Assembly: GCA_000724175.1 (NCBI GenBank)
Contig: JPGV01000025.1
Location: 1 to 64,000, forward strand
Direction of reading: 5' to 3'
DNA length: 64,000 bases
Origin: [Candidatus Thermochlorobacteriaceae] bacterium GBChlB
GTDB taxonomy: Bacteria; Bacteroidota; Chlorobiia; Chlorobiales; Thermochlorobacteraceae
The notes under the pieces are model-generated. The model saw nothing but the letters and a program-made list of their open reading frames with translations, was not told where the DNA came from and did no database searches. This document shows positions 2,416 through 12,347 of the stretch, piece by piece; the first letter of the stretch is position 1; every line of letters begins with the position of its first letter. Made by a program: the position numbers and the translations under genes.

Positions 2416-2880
2416 ATGGCATTGTTGGAGGTCGGCGCAACAGCGCCCGGGTTTAAATCCATTGACCAGAACGGCGAGCCGATTTCGCTGACGGAGTTCA
2501 AGGGCAAAAAAGTCGTGCTGTATTTTTATCCGAAAGACGATACGCCGGGCTGCACCAAAGAAGCCTGCGCGTTCCGCGATAATTTTCCGAAGTTCAAAAA
2601 ACTGAATGTGGAAGTCTTAGGCGTGAGCGTCGATGACCAAAAAAAGCATCAAAAATTTGCAGAAAAGTTCGACCTGCCGTTTCGATTGGTTGTCGATGAC
2701 GAAAAGAAAATCGTGCAAGACTACGGCGTTTGGGGCGAAAAAAGCATGTATGGAAAAAAATACTTCGGCACGAACCGCGTAACGTATCTCATTGATGAAA
2801 CTGGGAAAATCGAGCATGTCTTTCCAAAGGTCAAGCCAGAGACACACGCGGAAGAAATTTTGGCATTGTTGAAAAAATAA
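2416..2880 (+). CDS. bcp: Thioredoxin-dependent peroxiredoxin (Bcp type)
   Basis: A 154-residue AhpC/TSA-fold protein of the normal length for bacterioferritin comigratory protein. The active-site block [20 protein letters not shown] places the peroxidatic cysteine at C46, with the threonine and proline of the PxxxTxxC signature before it. A resolving cysteine, C51, lies five residues later, the arrangement of atypical 2-Cys Bcp enzymes. It reduces hydrogen peroxide and organic hydroperoxides in the cytoplasm using thioredoxin. The C-terminal sequence [21 protein letters not shown] is also characteristic. It follows the AEC gene by 37 bp on the same strand, with no strong ribosome-binding site. 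Confidence 0.93.
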
Positions 2881-2940: not shown

Positions 2941-3026
2941 GACGTTGGAACGCAGCTGGACGGTCGTAAGCAGAGACAAAACCTTCGATCGTTACGGCGT
3001 GAAACGTTTTTGGTAAGCATCAAAGA

Positions 3027-3776
3027 ATGATTTTAGGAAAAAAACTCGTCGTTGTTCTGCCCGCCTACAACGCTGCCAAAACGTTAGAACAAACTTACAA
3101 CGAAATTCCATTCGACGTCGTCGACGATGTCGTTCTGGTGGACGATGCCAGCAAAGACGATACGGCAACGCTTGCCCAACGCATCGGCATTGCGCATGTC
3201 ATTCGGCACGAGAAAAACAAGGGCTACGGTGGCAATCAAAAAACCTGTTACGACAAAGCTCTGTCGCTCGGCGCGGACATTGTGGTGATGCTGCACCCTG
3301 ACTATCAATACACGCCGAAGTTGATTGCGCCAATGGCGGGCATCATTGCAAACGAGGTGTATCCGTGCGTATTGGGGTCGCGTATTTTGGGCGGCGGCGC
3401 GCGCAAGGGCGGAATGCCGCTCTACAAATACATTTCAAATCGAGCGCTCACCTTCGTGCAAAACGTGTTGATGGGACAAAAACTCTCGGAGTATCATACA
3501 GGCTATCGAGCGTTTTCAAAAGATGTGCTGCAGACGGTGAATTATCATGCGAACTCCGACGATTTTGTGTTTGACAACGAAATGCTGGCGCAAATTTGTT
3601 TCGCTGGATTTCAAATCGCCGAAGTTACTTGCCCGACGAAATACTTTCCGGAGGCGTCGTCCATCAATTTTCAGCGCAGCGTCAAATACGGCTTTGGTGT
3701 CTTGCGCGTCTCGCTCTCGTTTTTTCTGCAAAAACTCGGCGCAGGGAAATTTAAGCTGTTTGACCCAAAAACCTAA
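3027..3776 (+). CDS. Family 2 glycosyltransferase (dolichol/polyprenyl-phosphate mannosyltransferase-like)
   Basis: A 249-residue cytoplasmic GT-A enzyme without the C-terminal membrane helices of longer polyprenyl-phosphate transferases. It starts with VVVLPAYNAAKTLEQTYNEI and carries the nucleotide-binding VDDASKDDT and then ADIVVMLHPDYQYTP, where HPDYQ replaces the usual DxD-type metal site (DADxQ) of this family. GSRILGGGARKGGMPLYKY and YHTGYRAF are the acceptor-side blocks typical of DPM1-like proteins. It probably transfers a hexose from a nucleotide sugar to a lipid carrier or glycan. It stands alone, convergent with the TonB receptor gene, 37 bp away. Confidence 0.85.
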   Translation: MILGKKLVVVLPAYNAAKTLEQTYNEIPFDVVDDVVLVDDASKDDTATLAQRIGIAHVIRHEKNKGYGGNQKTCYDKALSLGADIVVMLHPDYQYTPKLIAPMAGIIANEVYPCVLGSRILGGGARKGGMPLYKYISNRALTFVQNVLMGQKLSEYHTGYRAFSKDVLQTVNYHANSDDFVFDNEMLAQICFAGFQIAEVTCPTKYFPEASSINFQRSVKYGFGVLRVSLSFFLQKLGAGKFKLFDPKT

Positions 3777-3780
3777 CGGC

Positions 3781-3809
3781 GGTGCTTAGCCCTGAAAACG
3801 GCAAGCACC
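3781..3809. terminator. Hairpin between convergent genes
   Basis: GGTGCTT and AAGCACC pair, extended by an inner GCC/GGC, around the loop CTGAAAAC, giving an interrupted 10-bp stem. It lies in the 36-bp gap between the convergent glycosyltransferase and TonB receptor genes. No U-run follows, so termination strength is uncertain. The position fits a shared bidirectional terminator. Confidence 0.5.
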
Positions 3810-3812
3810 CGT

Positions 3813-5888
3813 TCAGAGAATTTCATATCCAAGAGTGATATAAAAATTTCTGCCACGACCGGGCAAGTTGTTGATGCTAAAATGTTCGTGATAACGAGCA
3901 TCAAAAAGATTTTCAATTCCAAAGCGCGCACTCAGATGCGCAAAGGGTTGAACACCGAACCGCACATCAAAGACAATCCACGCCGGCGTAACATCTTCAA
4001 CTAAAATGGCCTGCGCGACTCGAGTTTGTTGGAGCGCAAACCGCGTTGCAAGTTCAAGTTGCCAAGCGTTCTGGCGCATGGTCGCTCGCACATTTCCCGA
4101 AAGCGGGGGCATAAACGGCAACGGCTCGCCAAGCTGAAGCGATTCGCCGAATTGATAAGCCAGCGTTGCCGCTGCATCGACCGTCTCCGAGATGGCAAGT
4201 TGAGCGCTGGTTTCAACGCCGGCAATCACAGCGCTGCCCATATTCTGATAGCGTCTGAACGCCTGAGAAAACTGCCGATTGTTCGGATTCGCGTTGATGA
4301 ATGTTAGTCCGGCAATGTAGTTGTCGAACTGCGTATAAAACAGTTTAGCTTTAAGGCTGCTGGCGCCGCTCCGATGTTCAAAAGCAAGTTCGGTTTGCCA
4401 ACTTCGCTCTGGCTCTAAGTTCGGATTGCCGATGTAGATGGAATTATCGAGCGGGTTATAGAGGTAAAACCCGTAGTTTTCAATGTAGGTGGGCGCCCGC
4501 GAAGCGCGCGCAACAGAGACGGAAATTTTTTCCTGCTCGCTCAGTTGCCAGCCGCCTTCGACAATCAGACTGGCGAGAAGATAATTCAAACGAAATGATG
4601 CTGACGAGACATAGCCTTGAAACTGTCGTTTGGAAAGTTCGTCGGCGGCGTCGCGCTGAAGCAAATCAAGCCGACCGTTTGCGCGCAGCGTCAGGCGTGG
4701 CGAAATAAAGCGAGTGTAATCGACACTGATGCCTGCGTTCCATGTGGTTAGGTCGCCGAGATTGACAAGATACATCGGCGCAACATCGGGAAAGATGCTT
4801 CGCATTTCCATATCGGCGAAGGCGTTGACATGATGCGCATCGAGCGTGACTTTAAACAAGTCGGCAGCGCCGAGAATGGTCGCGTTCAGCAGCAACCCGC
4901 TGGTGCGGTTATCGCCATACATCGGCATAAACATATCTGGCATAATCACGCGCTCTCGAATTTCGCGAACCGTCCGCGAATAATCGTCCATCCAGTGCAA
5001 GACTTGATTGGTATAAACTTTCACGCTCAGGAGCGGCAGCCAGTCGGCAAGCGCACGCGCTTCATAATCAAGGCTGAAAATATGGGCGTCGGTGCGCGTG
5101 GCGTCCATAATCAGCGCGGGATACCCGATGTTGCGCGCAAAGTCGCCAATGTATGAGGCTGAAAACTTGTGCGTGCCAAACGCTTTGACAAGATTAAACT
5201 TGACATTCTCTTTCGAGTAGCCGGAATTTAAAATCCGCTCGCCGAGTCCAGCATAAAAATCGCCGGAGCGCTTGACCGAAAACGACCCGCGCATTGCCCA
5301 GCCGACAAGCGAGTGCGGCGCAAGATTGACGTCACCGCGCGCCCGAAATAAGCCCGAGACCGCCTCATAGCCTGTCTCGAGTTTTCCGAAGAACGCACGC
5401 TCTAAATCAGGCTTGGTGGTTACAAAGTTCAACGAACCGCCGATGGTTTGAGCAAACGATAAATCTTTTGCGCCCGCAGCCACATCGAGTTTTTCAATGT
5501 TCTCAATTTCAAGATACGCTGTTACCGGGTCCATTCTATCTACGCACGCCGAGTGCATCTTCATGCCGTCAATCGTTACGGCGATTTGTCCGCCGCTCAT
5601 ACCGCGAATCATTGGTTCTTGTGCAAAGTTTGCTCGGCGCATCAGTTGCACGCTTTGCGAGAGCGAGAGGGCGTCGTCCGTCGAGTTCAGTGTCCGCATT
5701 CGCTCTTGAAACGAGACATCGCCATAGACGACAATTTCTTCGCTCAAAACAAGCGGCGCTGAAAGCGAATCGCGTGTCGATGCCATCTTCGCGCGTCGTT
5801 GCAGCGAATCGACGACTGCGCCGGACTGCGCAGCGGCGTCAAACATTGCCGCAAAAAAACAAACGGTGAGAATTACTTTTTTAACCAT
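3813..5888 (-). CDS. TonB-dependent receptor, OprC-like copper importer
   Basis: A 691-residue outer-membrane receptor: signal peptide (to about AAAQ, residue 21), plug domain (about 50-160) and a 22-strand-type barrel ending in the aromatic terminus FYITLGYEIL. The plug contains MKMHSACVDRMDP, giving C115-x3-M119, and the barrel contains H298-W-M300. CxxxM and HxM are the copper-ligand motifs described for Pseudomonas OprC (C143/M147 and H323/M325); the spacing between the two motifs here (about 180 residues) matches OprC closely. There is no carboxypeptidase-like N-terminal domain. It is the last gene of an operon with MbnP, MbnH and YtkA-like proteins, starting 16 bp after the YtkA-like gene. 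Copper uptake is a well-supported inference. Confidence 0.88.
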   Translation of the reverse strand: MVKKVILTVCFFAAMFDAAAQSGAVVDSLQRRAKMASTRDSLSAPLVLSEEIVVYGDVSFQERMRTLNSTDDALSLSQSVQLMRRANFAQEPMIRGMSGGQIAVTIDGMKMHSACVDRMDPVTAYLEIENIEKLDVAAGAKDLSFAQTIGGSLNFVTTKPDLERAFFGKLETGYEAVSGLFRARGDVNLAPHSLVGWAMRGSFSVKRSGDFYAGLGERILNSGYSKENVKFNLVKAFGTHKFSASYIGDFARNIGYPALIMDATRTDAHIFSLDYEARALADWLPLLSVKVYTNQVLHWMDDYSRTVREIRERVIMPDMFMPMYGDNRTSGLLLNATILGAADLFKVTLDAHHVNAFADMEMRSIFPDVAPMYLVNLGDLTTWNAGISVDYTRFISPRLTLRANGRLDLLQRDAADELSKRQFQGYVSSASFRLNYLLASLIVEGGWQLSEQEKISVSVARASRAPTYIENYGFYLYNPLDNSIYIGNPNLEPERSWQTELAFEHRSGASSLKAKLFYTQFDNYIAGLTFINANPNNRQFSQAFRRYQNMGSAVIAGVETSAQLAISETVDAAATLAYQFGESLQLGEPLPFMPPLSGNVRATMRQNAWQLELATRFALQQTRVAQAILVEDVTPAWIVFDVRFGVQPFAHLSARFGIENLFDARYHEHFSINNLPGRGRNFYITLGYEIL

Positions 5889-5903
5889 TGTGCGCCTCCG
5901 GGT

Positions 5904-6740
5904 TCATAAGATGAAAAAGAAAAACGTGCGCCCAATCTCGGAGCCACCTCTGGTGCACCAAACATCAATTCGCCAATCGCCTTTCATATTGAATCCGATG
6001 CGTCCTCTGTATGCGCCGTTCTGGGTATGACGCGGGTTTTCGTTGCCTTCCGAGCCATGCCCCATTGACGGCATTAAGGTCTCGAAGACGACGGTAAAAT
6101 CCGAAACGGGGAAATACTGAGCGACGAGGTTATCGCCGTCGCGTGTGAGCCGCTCTTGGTAGATAAACCAAAGAAAATCTTGCACACCAACCTGCGGATA
6201 TTGCGGCTCTGAAAAAAACAAGAAATATCGTTTGGAATCTGTGCCGCTCATTTCTGCGCAACGCCACGAAGAACCAACAGACCGAACAAAGCCGACGCTG
6301 TCGATGCGGTCGTGTCGTTTAAACCGAATGGAGAAATTCCAAAGGGCAGCGCGCGGCAGGAAAACAAAACTCCGAAGTTTGCCCTCAACGGCAGTTGCCG
6401 CAGTGGTCGGCGCAATAAACAGCGTGTCTGACGCAAGCGAGGCGTTGACGGTGAGTTCATCGGGCGTAATGCGCTCGCCAGTCGCTGCATCGCGTAACTC
6501 GATGTCCAAAGCAACTGTGCCTGTGCGTAATGAATCGGCGGCGATAATGCTGACCGCGACGCCGTTCCGTTGAGCATCATAGACCGGAATAGAAACGGGC
6601 TGTGGCTCTGCGTCCGCGCGTAAGGGATTGTTTCGATAGGTTTGGCAGCCTATCATGCTCATAAACAGCAGCGTGACAAAAAACTGTGCTGACCAGCGGC
6701 ACGTGTTATCGGCGACGGTGCGTTTGCAAAAACGATTCAT
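5904..6740 (-). CDS. YtkA-like/FixH-type periplasmic lipoprotein of the copper operon
   Basis: A 278-residue exported protein with a hydrophobic leader and a plausible lipobox (MSMIGC, C32). The body carries beta-rich sequence and, near the C-terminus, ETLMPSMGHGSEGNENP followed by AYRGRIGFNMKGDWRIDVW. That is the signature of the YtkA-like domain, where a 'PxMGHG' loop precedes the final 'GxW' strands. Methionine and histidine in that loop could bind copper. Its start overlaps the end of the MbnH-like gene by 35 bp, and the TonB receptor follows 15 bp later, so it is part of one transcript. The family is common beside copper trafficking genes; its exact job is unknown. Confidence 0.75.
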   Translation of the reverse strand: MNRFCKRTVADNTCRWSAQFFVTLLFMSMIGCQTYRNNPLRADAEPQPVSIPVYDAQRNGVAVSIIAADSLRTGTVALDIELRDAATGERITPDELTVNASLASDTLFIAPTTAATAVEGKLRSFVFLPRAALWNFSIRFKRHDRIDSVGFVRSVGSSWRCAEMSGTDSKRYFLFFSEPQYPQVGVQDFLWFIYQERLTRDGDNLVAQYFPVSDFTVVFETLMPSMGHGSEGNENPRHTQNGAYRGRIGFNMKGDWRIDVWCTRGGSEIGRTFFFFIL

Positions 6741-7755
6741 CAGTCAAGGAGTTAAGAAAATTAACAAGGTCTTGTTTTTCCTGTTCTGTCAGCCCAAGTG
6801 GTTTGATGAGCGGATGTTGGTTGGGCGATTTCAGCCCGCCGCGATTGTAATGATCAATCACATCGTGCAGGGTCGGGAGCGAGCCATCATGAAAATACGG
6901 CGCGGTAAGCCCAACATTGCGCAGCGTCGGTGTTTTGAATTTGCCCTTGTCGCTGTCAAGAAACGTCATGGAATATCGACCAAGGTCGAGGTAGGTGCGT
7001 TGGCTGCCGTTGTCATGAAAGGCATTTGTCGTGAAATTGAATCCGCCGTGGCATTGAGAACAGTTGGTTCGCTCGCTGAAAAAAAGGCGCATGCCGCGTT
7101 GCTCGGAGTCGTTGAGCGTGGCGGCGCCCCGTTGAAATCGGTCGTAGCGTGAGTCGCCTGAAATCAAGGTGCGTTCAAACGACGCAATCGCATCAAGAAT
7201 GTGCAGAAGCGTCGGCGGGCTTTGAAAGGCATCGTAAAACAATCGCCGATACGACTCGTCCGCGTTGAGCCAAGCGATAATCTCGGCGATATGTCCGTTC
7301 ATTTCATCTTCATTCTCGATGGCGGAAATAGCTTGTGCTTCAAGCGTTTGCGCGCCGCCCGACCAAAAGTAAAGCCCGTTATAGGCGACGTTCGTCAGCG
7401 AGGGCGCGTTGCGCAGTCCGGCTGCGCCTGAAACGCCGACAGATGTCTGAAGCGTATCGCTGAACGCGCGCTCAGGCAAATGGCAGGAGCTACAGGAAAT
7501 TTGACCGTTGCTTGAAAGCCGTCCTTCAAAAAATAAACGTCGGCCCAGCTCTACTTTCTTCACGCTGAGCGGATTGCTTGTCGGAATCGGCGGAGCGGGA
7601 AACCCTGGTGGCAACGATAAGAATAACGGCGCGTCTCGCTCCGGCGAAGGTTCATTCGGCAACTTGCATGCCGCAAGCGACAGCAGCACAAACCAGCTCA
7701 CGACCGCCTGCAGATAAGGCAAGCGGTCGTGATGGCACAGACTCTTGAACATCAT
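6706..7755 (-). CDS. Di-haem cytochrome c peroxidase family protein, MbnH-like
   Basis: A 349-residue MauG/CcpA-family protein with a lipoprotein-type leader (LSLAAC, C30). Two haem c sites are visible: CSSCH at C88-C91-H92 and CSQCH at C232-C235-H236. Family blocks are LRNAPSLTNVAYN, FWSGGAQTLEAQA and LRNVGLTAPYFHDGSLPTL. The gene overlaps the MbnP gene by 4 bp (ATGA), a translational coupling seen for mbnP-mbnH pairs, where the di-haem enzyme oxidises a tryptophan of MbnP to kynurenine for copper binding. The MbnH assignment depends on this pairing; by sequence alone it is a generic MauG-type peroxidase. It should act in the periplasm. Confidence 0.87.
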   Translation of the reverse strand: MMFKSLCHHDRLPYLQAVVSWFVLLSLAACKLPNEPSPERDAPLFLSLPPGFPAPPIPTSNPLSVKKVELGRRLFFEGRLSSNGQISCSSCHLPERAFSDTLQTSVGVSGAAGLRNAPSLTNVAYNGLYFWSGGAQTLEAQAISAIENEDEMNGHIAEIIAWLNADESYRRLFYDAFQSPPTLLHILDAIASFERTLISGDSRYDRFQRGAATLNDSEQRGMRLFFSERTNCSQCHGGFNFTTNAFHDNGSQRTYLDLGRYSMTFLDSDKGKFKTPTLRNVGLTAPYFHDGSLPTLHDVIDHYNRGGLKSPNQHPLIKPLGLTEQEKQDLVNFLNSLTDESFLQTHRRR

Positions 7756-8612
7756 GGTCTGAATCTGAATGCGTTGGCGGTGCGTTGGTTATCGCGGAAC
7801 TGCTCTCCGAGTCGACGGTCGTTCGGGAACAGCGCGGGATTTCGAATCACCATGCAGTTCGGCGCAGTCGCCAAATCAATGCCAGCGAAAAACCGCGCGT
7901 AGTCGACTTGAACCGAAATGACATTGGTTTCCCCAGCGCGAATTTCAAACGGCTGCGAGAGCGTGATGCTCGACGCAAAGTCTGTCGGTCCGCCGATGTG
8001 GTAGAAAAATCGAGTATTCGGCGCGCCAGTGCCAGCCGGCGAGTTGTCGTAGAAACCCTCGACGCGCGTGAAAATGTAACCGCTGTTCCACGACCACCAG
8101 TTGCTTGGTTCAGGTGAGCTTGTCCGTGCCAAGGAATGTGTCGGACGCAGTCGCGCTGCTTCCAGTGCATCGATTCGGTTGAGTTGGTCGTTGAGTCCAA
8201 CCGTAAAGCGAATGGCTTTGTATCGTCCCGTCAAGGCGGTTCCTAACGCGGCGTCTCGATTGCCAGCGTCGTGACGGAACAAAATAATTTTATCCGTGAC
8301 GTTCAAAATTGCCGTATCGCCCGCGCCTCTAACAAAACGCACAGACAGCGGCTCGTCGGTAAAGCGAACCTCTTCGTTGTTTTCGCGGATGAGCGCAATG
8401 TCGCTGATGTAAATCCGTGCTTGGTTGAAGCGAGCGTTGCGCCCGTTGAGTTGAACGACCACATTTGTATCGAGAGCTTGCGAACCGATGACAGGCTCAA
8501 GGCGCAGCGACACCCGCTCGCTGGTTGGCGCCGGGTCGGTCGCGTTTCGAGAACAGGCAGAAATAAAAACAGATAGGCAGATAAAAACCGCCAAATAAAC
8601 AGTGGATTTCAT
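7752..8612 (-). CDS. MbnP family copper-binding lipoprotein
   Basis: A 286-residue exported protein with a lipobox (FISAC, C20). Family blocks are RYKAIRFTVGLN, the tryptophan cluster NWWSWNSGYIFTRVEG (W172, W173, W175) and FFYHIGG (H205), ending in VISVQVDYARFF and a region with C253/M254. In characterised MbnP proteins a tryptophan in such a protein is converted to kynurenine by MbnH and forms part of the copper site. Which residue is modified here cannot be told from sequence. It is translationally coupled to the MbnH-like gene. No methanobactin precursor gene was found nearby, so the pair probably handles copper without methanobactin. Confidence 0.85.
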   Translation of the reverse strand: MKSTVYLAVFICLSVFISACSRNATDPAPTSERVSLRLEPVIGSQALDTNVVVQLNGRNARFNQARIYISDIALIRENNEEVRFTDEPLSVRFVRGAGDTAILNVTDKIILFRHDAGNRDAALGTALTGRYKAIRFTVGLNDQLNRIDALEAARLRPTHSLARTSSPEPSNWWSWNSGYIFTRVEGFYDNSPAGTGAPNTRFFYHIGGPTDFASSITLSQPFEIRAGETNVISVQVDYARFFAGIDLATAPNCMVIRNPALFPNDRRLGEQFRDNQRTANAFRFRP

Positions 8613-8812
8613 ATTGATGATTGAAATTAGCGTTGAAAAAAAGACAATTCATAAACAAAGCGACTTGCCTTTGAAACGGCTGGGACGCGCAGAAGAACGT
8701 GAACTCTCTACAACAACGTCCAGAGACGTGCTAATACTCAAAACGCCACGCGATTGGCGAGCAAAGACGAAAGCGTTTCAAAAGGAGGCGCCGAAAAATT
8801 GAGTATGGAGAC

Positions 8813-9175
8813 TTATGCGGTTGTAGGTGGGCGAAAAACATCGCTGGAAAATCCTATCAGGAGAGAGGGCGAGTCAACCAAATTGAATGAGCGAGTAGCC
8901 TCGCAAAGAACAAAAAGAACAAAATGGTTTTGAATAAACTCATTGATTTCCGGGAACCGAAGTTCAGACTTGACGACATCGGATTTTTGTATCGGTGCGT
9001 CTTCATCAATCGAGTTGATATGACATTTGCCGTTACACTGGTCGTTCTCTGGATTGACGCAATACTGTTCGGCAATTACATCTTCAAAGGCGAAGTAAAC
9101 ACTCCAAAGAAGAGGGGAACTGTTTGCATAACAAACAAACAGTGCGAGCGTGAGTATGTGAACAAACTGTTTCAC
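8813..9175 (-). CDS. Small exported Cys-rich protein heading the copper operon
   Basis: A 120-residue protein with an N-terminal hydrophobic segment (about residues 4-30), then YFAFEDVIAEQYCVNPENDQ followed by CNGKCH, giving C-x8-C-x3-C-H. It ends in a second hydrophobic stretch and the tail FRPPTTA. From memory, Bacteroidota genomes hold many short proteins of the plan 'YxxxxxIaxxlCxNkxxpxxxCNGKCxL...FhPP', often beside copper or TonB-receptor genes; I know of no formal function. The invariant CNGKCH is a plausible metal site. It lies 200 bp upstream of MbnP on the same strand, so it may be first in the operon or have its own promoter. The intervening 200 bp show no other gene. Confidence 0.7.
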   Translation of the reverse strand: MKQFVHILTLALFVCYANSSPLLWSVYFAFEDVIAEQYCVNPENDQCNGKCHINSIDEDAPIQKSDVVKSELRFPEINEFIQNHFVLFVLCEATRSFNLVDSPSLLIGFSSDVFRPPTTA

Positions 9176-9279
9176 GGAATACTGCTTAGGACTTCGCGGT
9201 CAATCTTTTTGCGACTGGTTTCCATTCCACTAATATACAAAATAGAAACTGCTTCCATGCTGGCGTCAATTGATGAGCG

Positions 9280-9417
9280 ATGCGAATTGGAAATAGCGGA
9301 CCTATCAGCATTATTTCAAAATCAGTCGGCGTTGCGGTCGCGCTGTCGCTGATGGCGCTTTGGACGCTCGCGCCGCTCTTTTTTGGCGCAAAGGGATTTT
9401 TAAAGAGGGATTTCTGA
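9280..9417 (+). pseudogene. Possible remnant or small membrane protein resembling an ABC-2 permease tail
   Basis: A 45-codon open frame (ATG 9280, TGA 9415-9417) encodes one hydrophobic segment (VGVAVALSLMALWTLAPLFF) followed by GAKGFLKRDF. The 'membrane helix then F.(K/R)RD(F/L)' end is what ABC-2 permeases such as NosY or GldF look like, and the ABC permease at 563-1432 ends the same way. Two stop codons lie directly upstream in frame and there is no ribosome-binding site. I read it as a decayed gene end rather than a working gene. It lies in the 268-bp gap between two minus-strand genes that otherwise holds nothing clear. Confidence 0.3.
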
Positions 9418-9443
9418 CTCAAAATCCTAACGACGAAATTTAC

Positions 9444-11618
9444 TCACACATTGAACCAATAACTTACTTTCATCACAATGCCGCGATTGCGAATGCCGAA
9501 CACATTGGTATCGTAGTTGTCGGTATAAACCAAAAATACATCGCTCATTGGCGCAAACCGCCACTGCATACGCGCATTCAAATTCATGTTTTGAATCTGC
9601 GTGTTGTATTGAAGGAATGTCGTGATGAACAAATTTTGCGTCAGCGAAAGATCGAGCGTTGTACCAACGAGCGTCAGTGTCGCGCTCTCGTAAGGGGCAG
9701 GCAAGGTGATGAAGTTCTGTTGCAAGTTCACGCCAATCGAGCCAAACGGCTGAAAGCGATAGGCGGCGCGGGCGAGGTATTGCACGCGACTGCCGTTGAA
9801 ATAGCTGCCGTAGAACGCATCACCGCCGAACGTAAACCGCTCCCGAATGTCGCTGCTGAACCAGCCGCCAATGAGGCGATAGTTGTAATCGCCGATGGGC
9901 AGAGGCGTGCGGTTGCGTCCCGTCGCGTCGAAGGGCGCGGTCAATCGCGTGAAAATGTCGTTGTAAAAAACGCCGGTCTCGACCGTGTTCTGAAAATTGA
10001 AAAAGTAAGCCACTTCTATCGTGCGGTCGAGCGTTTGCAAAAAGTCCTGCGAGCGATACATATCGCCGCGCATAAACAAGCCGTGATTGTTCAAAACGTC
10101 GGACTGCGGGTAAAAACGATATTCGCCGATGGGTTCAAATCGCCACACGCCTTTGCGCGGCACGAACCCGACTTCGGGATTGTAGTTCTGCCCGATGAAC
10201 TCGTGATTCCACTCCAAACGAAATTCCGGCTGGTCGTAACGCAAAAAAAGCGCAGTCGCGTATTGAGAAGGTGTCGAGACGGGGGTGAAGTTGTGGTGGT
10301 AAAAAAGTTTGCCGAGCCAGCGGCTATCGTCAGAAATGAAATTGAAGTCCACGCCAGCGACGCGGTTGAAATTGTTGCCATCGACGCCGCCGAAATTGTT
10401 GCCTTGTCGATTGACGAAAATTGCCGAGATGTTCGAGCGCGCCAAAACCTGACGCTGCACGACCGCCACCGAGTAATTATTGCCCTTGTAGTTCAACGCG
10501 GCTTTATCGCCTGTTTGCATATTGAGCAGCCCGATGCGCCAGTCTTTATCGAGGTTGCCGCTCAGCCGCGCGCCTGCAATGATTGGAATTTGTTGTCCGT
10601 TGGAAAGCCCAATTTGGCGCGAGAAAAACGGGCGAATCCGCGAGAAGCCAAAGCTGGCAAACAGATCGGCGTTCTCTAAAAAAAACTGTCGCTGTTCGGG
10701 AAAAAAAATGCTGAACCGGTCGAGGTTGGTTACTTGGCGATCGACATTGACTTGCGAGAAGTCAGGGTTAAGCGTTACATCTAAATTAAGCGACGGCGTA
10801 ACGGCGAATTTAATGTCGCCGCCCGCATTGAAGGTTGCGTTTGGAAAATTTCGGTTCAAATAGTCGGCGCTGTTGCTGCCGATGGTGTAGGGAATGAGCG
10901 AGATATTCGCGCCGGCGCTTTTCGGCGGTTCGTCCCACACGAGCGTCCCCATATAGGCGAGGTTCAACACGAAAAAGTTTCGAGGAATCGGAATCCACGA
11001 CGAGCGCTCGTTTTGTTTGAGATTGTTCCGCGCGAAATTGATGCGCCACTCCGAGCCGTTGCTGTTGAAGCGAAGCGTGTTGAACGGAATTGCCATCTCT
11101 GCAATCCATTTGCCCGGCTCAATGCGCGTTTCGGAAATCCACTTGTTGTCCCAATTGAGCGAGACATTGTCTCCGTTGGCGATTAAGCCTTCGCCCTGTG
11201 CGCCGACTGGGCTGACGCGAAACGTGAAGCCCGATGTTTTGTTATTGAGCGCATCAATATAAACGCTGAAATTATCGCTCTCGTTGAAACTAAAATCGCG
11301 CCGAAGCGATTGGACGATGAACTCTTGTTCGTCGTCGTAACAAACGGCGGCGATGTAAAGATGGCTCTCGTCGTAGGTTACAAACGCTTCGGTTTTGGAG
11401 CGGGCGAGCGAGGTGTCGAACGGAAAATTTTGAAAAAAATCTTTGGCGGCGTCTGCCTCGCGCCACGACGTTTCATCGAGCTTGCCGTCGATGATGATTT
11501 TATCCGACGCGCGTTTCAGGCGCAAGCGGTAGGTCGCGCTCGAGTCGAGCGGTCTTGCCCAAAGCACCGACGACGTAACCCACATTAGAAAAAGAAAAAC
11601 GGTAACTGAGCGCATCAT
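9444..11618 (-). CDS. DUF5916 protein: CBM9-like domain plus outer-membrane-like region
   Basis: A 724-residue exported protein (signal peptide to about WARPLD). Residues about 35-230 match the family 9 carbohydrate-binding-like domain that opens DUF5916 proteins: IIIDGKLDETSWREADAAKDF, then FVTYDESHLYIAAVCYDD, SDNFSVYIDALNNKTSGFTF and MAIPFNTLRF. The following several hundred residues are rich in alternating aromatic strands (NLDVTLNPDFSQVNVD, FFPEQRQFFLENADLF) and end in GIVMKVSYWFNV, consistent with a beta-barrel. Members are widespread in Bacteroidota and related phyla; their function is not established. The gene stands alone, divergent from the J-domain gene with 252 bp between them. Confidence 0.85.
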   Translation of the reverse strand: MMRSVTVFLFLMWVTSSVLWARPLDSSATYRLRLKRASDKIIIDGKLDETSWREADAAKDFFQNFPFDTSLARSKTEAFVTYDESHLYIAAVCYDDEQEFIVQSLRRDFSFNESDNFSVYIDALNNKTSGFTFRVSPVGAQGEGLIANGDNVSLNWDNKWISETRIEPGKWIAEMAIPFNTLRFNSNGSEWRINFARNNLKQNERSSWIPIPRNFFVLNLAYMGTLVWDEPPKSAGANISLIPYTIGSNSADYLNRNFPNATFNAGGDIKFAVTPSLNLDVTLNPDFSQVNVDRQVTNLDRFSIFFPEQRQFFLENADLFASFGFSRIRPFFSRQIGLSNGQQIPIIAGARLSGNLDKDWRIGLLNMQTGDKAALNYKGNNYSVAVVQRQVLARSNISAIFVNRQGNNFGGVDGNNFNRVAGVDFNFISDDSRWLGKLFYHHNFTPVSTPSQYATALFLRYDQPEFRLEWNHEFIGQNYNPEVGFVPRKGVWRFEPIGEYRFYPQSDVLNNHGLFMRGDMYRSQDFLQTLDRTIEVAYFFNFQNTVETGVFYNDIFTRLTAPFDATGRNRTPLPIGDYNYRLIGGWFSSDIRERFTFGGDAFYGSYFNGSRVQYLARAAYRFQPFGSIGVNLQQNFITLPAPYESATLTLVGTTLDLSLTQNLFITTFLQYNTQIQNMNLNARMQWRFAPMSDVFLVYTDNYDTNVFGIRNRGIVMKVSYWFNV

Positions 11619-11870
11619 AAAAAGCGAGTTGAAGGCGAAATCGCCGTTGAAACCGTGTCGGTGTCTGAGCGGGCGTCAAATCGTGTTGGAACATGGAGAG
11701 CATGCAAAACAGTTGAAAGATGCACGTTTGCGCTTCCCACTATCACGATGAAAACAAGGATTATTTGACCGACGCTTTTAAAAAAGCGGAAAATGCGTAT
11801 TTTAACGAACCTCTTTGACAAAAGTTTTCGTAGTAACAAAAAACTTTCTCTGTAAAAGCCCTGTCAAGTT

Positions 11871-12347
11871 ATGAGCGTCTTGTCGAGACTCATTCGCGTG
11901 TTGAAAGCTTATACGACCGTGCGCGGCGGCGCAGTGGATTTATCGGATACGCGCTGGGAGGACTTGCTCAAAGAAGCGGAGCGGCAATATAACCGCGCCC
12001 GAAAAAAAGCGTCGGAAGAGTTCAACGCGAGAAGGTCGTCGCAGCACAGCTACCAAAAAAAATCCTACCAAAACAGCGGCTACTCGTCCTACTCGAATTC
12101 GTCGTCTTCAACCTCAAGTTATCAGACCAGCAAAGACGCTAAACTTGCGGGCTACTACGCCAATCTCGAGGCGCCCTATGGCTCAGATTTGGAGACTGTG
12201 CGGCAAGCTTGGCGCAAGATGGTCGCAAAGTATCATCCCGATAAATTTTCGAGCGACCCTGAAAAACAAAAAATCGCTACTGAACTGACCAAAGGCATTA
12301 ATCATGCTTACGAAGAATTATCCAAACATTTAAAGCAATCATTGTAA
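11871..12347 (+). CDS. J-domain protein
   Basis: A 158-residue protein. The C-terminal half (about 95-158) is a J-domain: LEAPYGSDLETVRQAWRKMVAKYHPDKFSSD, with the HPD tripeptide, and then INHAYEELSKHL. The middle is a low-complexity linker rich in serine, tyrosine and glutamine (about 55-85), and the N-terminus is short and basic. It lacks the G/F and zinc-finger regions of DnaJ, so it is a class C co-chaperone that recruits and stimulates a Hsp70. It is first of three co-oriented genes with YbjN-like and PspA-like proteins, 33 bp from the next. In this setting it may serve PspA turnover or disassembly; that is inference. Confidence 0.88.
   Translation: MSVLSRLIRVLKAYTTVRGGAVDLSDTRWEDLLKEAERQYNRARKKASEEFNARRSSQHSYQKKSYQNSGYSSYSNSSSSTSSYQTSKDAKLAGYYANLEAPYGSDLETVRQAWRKMVAKYHPDKFSSDPEKQKIATELTKGINHAYEELSKHLKQSL

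Follow-up and report, generated by a model that had tools for sequence, protein, structure and literature searches.

A copper-acquisition operon of a Chlorobiales bacterium, probably governed by a CruR/CutF-like leader peptide from a family spread across Bacteroidota

In Bordetella, a receptor operon that copper represses begins with the gene for the small protein CruR, which carries a CXXC site and a terminal RAPP sequence (PMC9426467). In the model proposed for CruR, a ribosome stalled at RAPP in the absence of copper shields the message, and copper bound at CXXC lifts the stall, so that Rho terminates transcription in a 162-nt gap (PMC9426467); stalling at RAPP has been shown in vitro (PMC12992588). 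A cruR homolog also lies upstream of oprC in Pseudomonas aeruginosa, and OprC-type TonB-dependent transporters (TBDTs) and MbnPH genes were listed among CruR-headed operons by Roy et al. 2022 (PMC9426467). In CutF, from the cutFOG operon of Rhodobacter capsulatus, a CxxxC site is combined with a Pro-rich end, and copper switches the target on via a stem-loop (PMC9973294). Neither CruR nor CutF was detected as a stable protein (PMC9426467, PMC9973294). Here, we describe a five-gene operon in a 64,000-nucleotide stretch of DNA (the window) from the Thermochlorobacteriaceae bacterium GBChlB (GCA_000724175.1, contig JPGV01000025.1, positions 1 to 64,000; assembly size 3.05 Mb in 51 contigs), and we consider it probable that this operon serves copper acquisition and is governed by its own first gene, which would encode a CruR/CutF-like leader peptide.

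The five genes are co-directional on the minus strand at positions 3813-9175. In the order of transcription, a small protein of 120 residues is followed by a 200-nt gap, MbnP, an MbnH-like enzyme, a YtkA-domain protein and a TonB-dependent receptor. An earlier note on this DNA had given the operon coordinates, a 4-bp mbnP/mbnH overlap, a 35-bp mbnH/ytkA overlap and two receptor motifs, all of which were confirmed on the sequence; the gap between ytkA and the receptor gene is 15 nt. The same note had left out the FRPPTTA-stop end of the small protein and its conservation across the phylum. Candidatus Thermochlorobacter aerophilum, also of the Chlorobiales (loci L008 and L040, which are equivalent), has the identical five genes in the identical order, including the 35-bp overlap. 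Pfam assigns the operon proteins to the TonB plug and barrel, YtkA, CCP_MauG and MbnP families, and no Pfam or NCBIfam model matches the small first protein or its family. The features of the operon are as follows.

8813-9175, minus strand: small first gene, 120 aa, GTG start, a proposed copper-sensing leader peptide (upstream open reading frame), with an N-terminal export-type hydrophobic segment, C39-x7-C47-N-G-K-C51 and FRPPTTA-stop.
9023-9061, minus strand: codons of the leader's three-Cys site, C39 to C47-N-G-K-C51.
8825-8836, minus strand: codons F114-R115-P116-P117, three residues before the stop, a proposed arrest motif.
8613-8812, minus strand: leader-mbnP intergenic region, 200 nt, a proposed conditional-termination site, with a C-over-G excess seen family-wide.
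7752-8612, minus strand: MbnP-family lipoprotein, 286 aa, with lipobox C20, N171, W173-S-W175 and H205; PF20243, and 7L6G by profile and fold.
8088-8096, minus strand: MbnP WxW motif, W173-S174-W175, both Trp invariant in 33 homologs and aligned with WNW of 7L6G.
6706-7755, minus strand: MbnH-like dihaem enzyme, 349 aa, two CxxCH sites; MtMbnH 6E1C is the closest solved protein.
5904-6740, minus strand: YtkA-domain protein, 278 aa, a likely lipoprotein (LLFMSMIGC box); PF13115 at 35.5 bits over residues 211-260, in a position shared with Ca. T. aerophilum.
3813-5888, minus strand: OprC-type TonB-dependent copper receptor, 691 aa, by profiles, alignment and predicted fold.
5532-5546, minus strand: receptor plug ligands C115-x3-M119.
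4989-4997, minus strand: receptor barrel ligands H298-W-M300.

The case for a leader peptide starts from the plan of the small first protein. Each of the five nearest small proteins has [FL][RH]PP plus two or three residues at its end, and a profile of those five finds matches in 150 of 394 Bacteroidota genomes, or 65 of 170 genera. A set of 97 loci was taken for detailed comparison, 92 of them fetched from profile-positive genomes and five, one of which is the window, belonging to the same order. Since testing for a terminal Pro-Pro (PP) pair with the full profile would be circular, the profile was rebuilt without the C-terminal half; in the 97 loci it gave 100 matches, 98 of which have PP in the last ten residues, as against 6 of 508 background open reading frames. 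In the two seeming exceptions, PP is present 63 and 69 residues past the Cys site (hand count) and the tails are longer; hence, it is the spacing between Cys site and PP that is held constant, at 61-73 residues (median 67, standard deviation 2.7; 64 in the window leader). Across 52 aligned leaders, C39, G49, P116 and P117 are invariant, C47 and C51 vary very little, and there is not much conservation elsewhere; most members of the family are about 20% identical to the window leader. The pattern C-x(5-12)-C-x3-C occurs in 95 of the 97 leaders, and a hydrophobic stretch lies ahead of the Cys site in all 95 leaders tested. The residue before PP is His in 48 leaders, Arg in 20, Pro in 13, Lys in 8 and Gln in 5, and it is preceded by Phe in 67. 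In a second sample, drawn around MbnP from named genomes, many of them of closely related species, 54 of 78 loci (from Pedobacter, Hymenobacter, Hufsiella and other genera) had a leader at most 1.3 kb upstream of MbnP, and PP lay 58-76 residues past the Cys site in all 57 leaders found. As a separate observation in this sample, Hymenobacter negativus has two leader copies about 2.7 kb apart (L072:5656-6177 and 8440-8841) upstream of one MbnP locus, which suggests tandem leader-controlled units.

The genes that follow the leader are of a restricted kind. Among 96 loci, the first downstream gene encodes MbnP in 31, MbnH in 2 and an OprC-type receptor in 24, and the remaining 39 include 18 TonB plug and 9 YtkA proteins by Pfam; in total, MbnP/MbnH, a TonB receptor or YtkA directly follows the leader in about 84 of 96 loci, at a median gap of 110 nt. 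Most homologous MbnP-MbnH operons lack a receptor, and many receptors occur without MbnPH. What usually comes after the MbnP-MbnH pair is a protein of about 320 residues with a C-x2-C-x-C motif, not a receptor; hence, the receptor behaves as an exchangeable partner. The most constant element is the small first gene. The earlier note had treated its CNGKCH protein as an accessory, but the protein is most likely a regulatory leader peptide. It had also presented the combination of genes as unusual; operons of the same kind, with OprC-type receptors, MbnPH and a copper leader, are already known from Proteobacteria (PMC9426467).

Comparison with the described systems supports this assignment. The CruR operons (cruR-bfrG/crtA-bp2921 and cruR-oprC) share with the present family a small exported first gene, a Cys site, a near-terminal PP and a long intergenic gap before a TonB-dependent copper receptor. 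Similarly, CutF and CutF-like proteins share small size, export, CxxxC, a C-terminal PP and a same-strand copper gene downstream. The leader is read as CruR/CutF-like because its hydrophobic segment, three-Cys site and PP at a fixed distance match both. When the published CutF-like rules are applied, the window leader has 120 residues (limit, below 150), PP at 116-117 (within the last 15) and a downstream gene 200 nt away (limit, below 1000), together with a hydrophobic N-terminus as its putative export signal; the rule-based CutF-like collection (PMC9973294), whose text does not treat the Bacteroidota members as a family, very likely includes the leader family. In the literature covered, the C-x7-CxGKC...F[RH]PP family heading MbnPH/OprC-type operons across Bacteroidota is undescribed as such. 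At the RNA level, the leader 3' part (skew 0.21, compared with -0.03 in the body of the next gene) and the intergenic regions have more C than G family-wide, an excess to which the amino-acid composition of the leader could contribute. The rut region of CruR has a C-over-G excess likewise (PMC9426467).

Gene order, conserved ligands, fold matches and the constant plan, spacing and place of the leader are all observed; that the ribosome stalls, that the leader binds copper, which way the operon responds, and the parts played by Rho and by a transfer to MbnP are what we infer. The mechanism would be the following. The receptor would import ionic copper across the outer membrane using the OprC ligand set C-x3-M/H-x-M, and MbnP (matured by MbnH) and the YtkA-domain protein would bind copper in the periplasm, for example, for a CuA-containing cytochrome oxidase. 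The leader would be translated, and its hydrophobic N-terminus would direct it to export. Under copper scarcity, the ribosome would stall at the terminal FRPP, and the downstream operon would be expressed. When copper is plentiful, it would bind the three-Cys site, which at that moment would only just be clear of the ribosome and translocon; the stall would then be relieved, and transcription would end in the 200-nt gap before mbnP, most likely via Rho. With a ribosome tunnel of about 30 residues and a membrane of about 17, the figures used in PMC9973294, a chain stalled with the 66-residue spacing would have its Cys site some 20 residues beyond the membrane. This suggests that the leader may sense periplasmic copper.

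Several points weigh against this reading. CruR belongs to DUF2946 (PF11162) and has CXXC, RAPP and a spacing of 45, whereas the leader family has C-x7-CxGKC, ends in F[RHKQ]PP (mostly FRPP/FHPP; FRPP in the window) and has a Cys-to-PP spacing of about 66. CutF also has a spacing of 45, its stem-loop covers the ribosome-binding site, and its response is opposite in direction, since copper turns the target on (PMC9973294). Most RAPP-like sequences tested outside real arrest peptides fail to stall (PMC10987492), and a search of the literature found no experiments on any Bacteroidota leader-family member. DUF2946 was matched neither by the window leader (E<=10) nor by 52 homologs (E<=0.1), and a scan of 20 genomes gave no match at any leader position; membership of the leader in DUF2946/CruR was rejected on these grounds. 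The window intergenic region 8613-8812 folds no better than its shuffles (z 0.69), and it contains only weak, chance-level matches to an intrinsic terminator (hairpin 8759-8744). The leader may not be the first gene of its transcription unit in every locus. Finally, Met stands two residues before the first Trp of the MbnP WxW motif in 29 of 33 relatives and in 7L6G, and Asn (N171) replaces it in the window MbnP.

Two further mechanisms considered for the gap were rejected. For a structured RNA switch, an Rfam match is lacking in 3000-12000 and the intergenic fold is not above that of shuffles; for an intrinsic terminator, the hairpin matches are weak and at chance level. Family-wide, the intergenic fold gave a median z of -2.0 with mononucleotide shuffles, a value that is not relied on. 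In the DUF2946 scan, weak matches below the cut-off occurred elsewhere in two genomes (G087:C14:69419-69733, E 9.5e-4; G131:C7:6025-6252, E 0.006), and true CruR relatives may coexist with the new leader in some Bacteroidota genomes. The CruR homologs named in the text of PMC9426467 come for the most part from Proteobacteria, with others from a small number of further phyla; Bacteroidota are not among these.

The receptor of the window is of the OprC type, as the earlier note had proposed. Among NCBIfam receptor models, TIGR01778 (copper) is the best for it at 143.9 bits, under the equivalog cut-off of 472 bits, and OprC is its top phmmer match. A profile of 33 receptors searched against the Protein Data Bank (PDB) gave OprC at E 3.8e-101, with PhuR as the runner-up receptor at 6e-52. 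In the profile alignment, C115/M119 and H298/M300 match OprC C143/M147 and H323/M325 (numbering from PMC8610252) column for column. These four residues are among just 12 invariant columns in the 33 aligned receptors, the other 32 of which are 19-63% identical to the window receptor; since the 33 were picked for carrying the quartet, this invariance arises partly by selection. A fairer test was provided by an unselected set of 61 long proteins downstream of the leader family, in which the four ligands nearly always occur together or are missing together; almost all OprC-type receptors behind a leader retain the quartet. An AlphaFold2 model of the receptor has a pLDDT of 88, and the first 28 Foldseek matches are all OprC chains (TM 0.76-0.86). 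From the alignment to OprC, the four ligands are predicted to converge in one site, as in OprC. The window receptor thus shares the full C-x3-M/H-x-M site and the fold with OprC/NosA, and OprC is its closest solved relative, although the two are only about 19% identical in the structural alignment. OprC/NosA has been described as conserved in Proteobacteria (PMC8610252), and receptors of this type occur here in Chlorobiales and Bacteroidota.

Two other groups of leader-headed receptors were observed. The first is a second TonB receptor class without CxxxM/HxM, whose plug keeps YLEDGxPIRPxGxFNHNAL and which is reminiscent of CrtA, a receptor where His is conserved but Cys and Met are not (L122, L123, L138, L169, L180, L182, L192-L194, L198, L199, L202, L210 and L211). 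The second occurs in genomes of family f4 of the same order (probably Chlorobiaceae), where a leader ending in IDHPPxx accompanies an OprC-type receptor, and MbnP/MbnH are absent from the stretch fetched (L130, L131, L134, L142-L144, L152, L168 and L185).

The assignments of MbnP and of the MbnH-like enzyme made in the earlier note are likewise supported. The window MbnP passes PF20243 with 108 bits (cut-off 27), and it stays under the equivalog cut-off of TIGR04052 (MbnP_like_WxW; 53.8 against 140 bits). The best fold match of its model is Methylosinus trichosporium MbnP 7L6G (E 1.3e-8 to 2.4e-7, TM 0.45-0.50), the next, unrelated match being at 0.027. With phmmer, the single window MbnP matched no solved structure, but the family profile did match 7L6G, as the sole convincing match (E 4.8e-8). 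The residues W173, W175 and H205 are invariant in 33 homologs, and both WxW and His are aligned with 7L6G; in the family prototype, the first Trp of WxW (W173 here) is the one oxidised to kynurenine. Because the usual Met beside WxW is replaced, the kynurenine copper site predicted for the window MbnP is uncertain; the same Asn is found in the T. aerophilum MbnP. MbnP is a predicted lipoprotein, with Cys at the C20 column in 32 of 33 homologs. The dihaem enzyme has MtMbnH 6E1C as its closest solved protein (E 3e-66; next 7e-47), and TIGR04039 is its best NCBIfam model at 301.5 bits, under the curated cut-off of 362.85. Compared with the M. trichosporium OB3b proteins, the adjacent gene pair, WxW and His, the 7L6G fold and the relation to 6E1C are shared; the window MbnP differs in being a lipoprotein under TIGR04052, in having only two Cys and in N171. 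In addition, the gene for MbnB (PF05114) was not found in the genome of the window organism, so the description of the system as methanobactin-free holds as far as tested. Elsewhere in the genome, a CuA-type cytochrome oxidase COX2 with the motif CAEYCGKSHSGM adjoins a SCO1/SenC-like gene, and this oxidase is a plausible copper consumer.

In the earlier note, these parts were joined into one line, in which ionic copper imported by an OprC-like receptor passes to an MbnP whose kynurenine is formed by MbnH. The receptor ligands and fold, the invariant WxW and His of MbnP and the mbnP-mbnH gene overlap all favour this line, which is compatible with a regulatory leader in front. On the other side, most family MbnP-MbnH pairs have no adjacent receptor, and a hand-off is therefore not the general role of these pairs; a dedicated receptor-to-MbnP transfer as the core of the system is not supported. 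Synteny, the check that the earlier note had set, speaks against the dedicated line, as the receptor is usually missing, and not against copper uptake as such, as the ligand quartet is kept. For the kynurenine, which is predicted from sequence, W173, W175 and H205 are retained, but N171 and the missed TIGR04052 and TIGR04039 cut-offs count against it. Taken as a whole, the line is possible, and we hold it only tentatively.

A leader of the CutF type with the opposite sign, in which copper would prolong the stall and switch the genes on for detoxification rather than uptake, is unlikely. The C-x3-C spacing is shared with CutF, and the CutF-like list holds many Bacteroidota, with efflux genes as the commonest neighbours there (PMC9973294). 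However, the targets of the present family are receptors and MbnPH, for which repression by copper is sensible and is known for CruR and oprC (PMC9426467), and for this reason the CruR direction is favoured. Moreover, the gaps behind the leader are long, and the opening of a stem-loop would lead us to expect short ones.

Slightly less likely again is the reading that the small protein is secreted into the periplasm, serves uptake there by binding or chaperoning copper, and has no part in regulation. Such a protein would fit the hydrophobic export segment, the conserved three-Cys site and the nearly constant presence of copper-type genes beside it, but conservation beyond the Cys site is limited to the PP at a fixed distance near the stop, and the stretch between them is almost unconserved in sequence and constant in length; CruR and CutF, which have the same plan, escaped detection as stable proteins, as mentioned above. 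The least probable alternative, that the dihaem enzyme is an ordinary periplasm-protecting cytochrome c peroxidase with MbnP not its substrate, accords with its CCP_MauG membership and the missed TIGR04039 cut-off and is opposed by the distance in E-value (MtMbnH is closer than peroxidases by about 20 orders of magnitude) and by the adjacency of MbnP and MbnH in nearly all loci having either.

Some additional observations concern the surroundings and relatives of these genes. The C-x2-C-x-C protein found behind MbnP-MbnH in 25 loci (L006:7258-8211, L007:8339-9319, L009:3021-3995 and 22 others) has about 300-335 residues, is exported, carries an N-terminal CDFCNC or CDACGC and gives a weak match to outer-membrane barrels; it is a possible alternative copper partner of MbnP. 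Flavobacterial MbnP proteins (e.g., L126, L167 and L188) often have C-S-x-D-D-D or a similar sequence after the lipobox Cys, which the window MbnP lacks; we take this start to resemble the Bacteroidota signal for surface-exposed lipoproteins. Next to the operon, an AhpC/TSA-type peroxiredoxin gene lies on the opposite strand (2416-2880, plus strand), and a DUF5916/CBM9 outer-membrane type protein is encoded on the same strand 268 nt upstream (9444-11618, minus strand); a copper link is not evident for either.

To our knowledge, Gram-negative bacteria have yielded very few switches of copper acquisition so far, and all leader peptides demonstrated to function are proteobacterial. Beyond the operon itself, we regard as evenly balanced the broader proposal that, throughout Bacteroidota, CxGKC...F[RH]PP proteins make up an unnamed class of arrest peptides that respond to copper and stall at a motif other than RAPP. 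They would sense copper in the periplasm, not in the cytoplasm, and would control MbnP/MbnH, OprC-type receptors and the second receptor class. RAPP/RGPP copper leader peptides were reported missing from Bacteroidota in a 2025 survey (PMC12992588); if the proposal is true, the leader family, present in 150 of the 394 sampled genomes, would fill this gap with a different stall sequence. It would also yield a list of targets, comprising MbnP/MbnH pairs, OprC-type receptors and the second receptor class with the NHN plug motif. Finally, MbnP/MbnH outside methanobactin operons would be tied to a signal of copper status, which bears on the function of these pairs.

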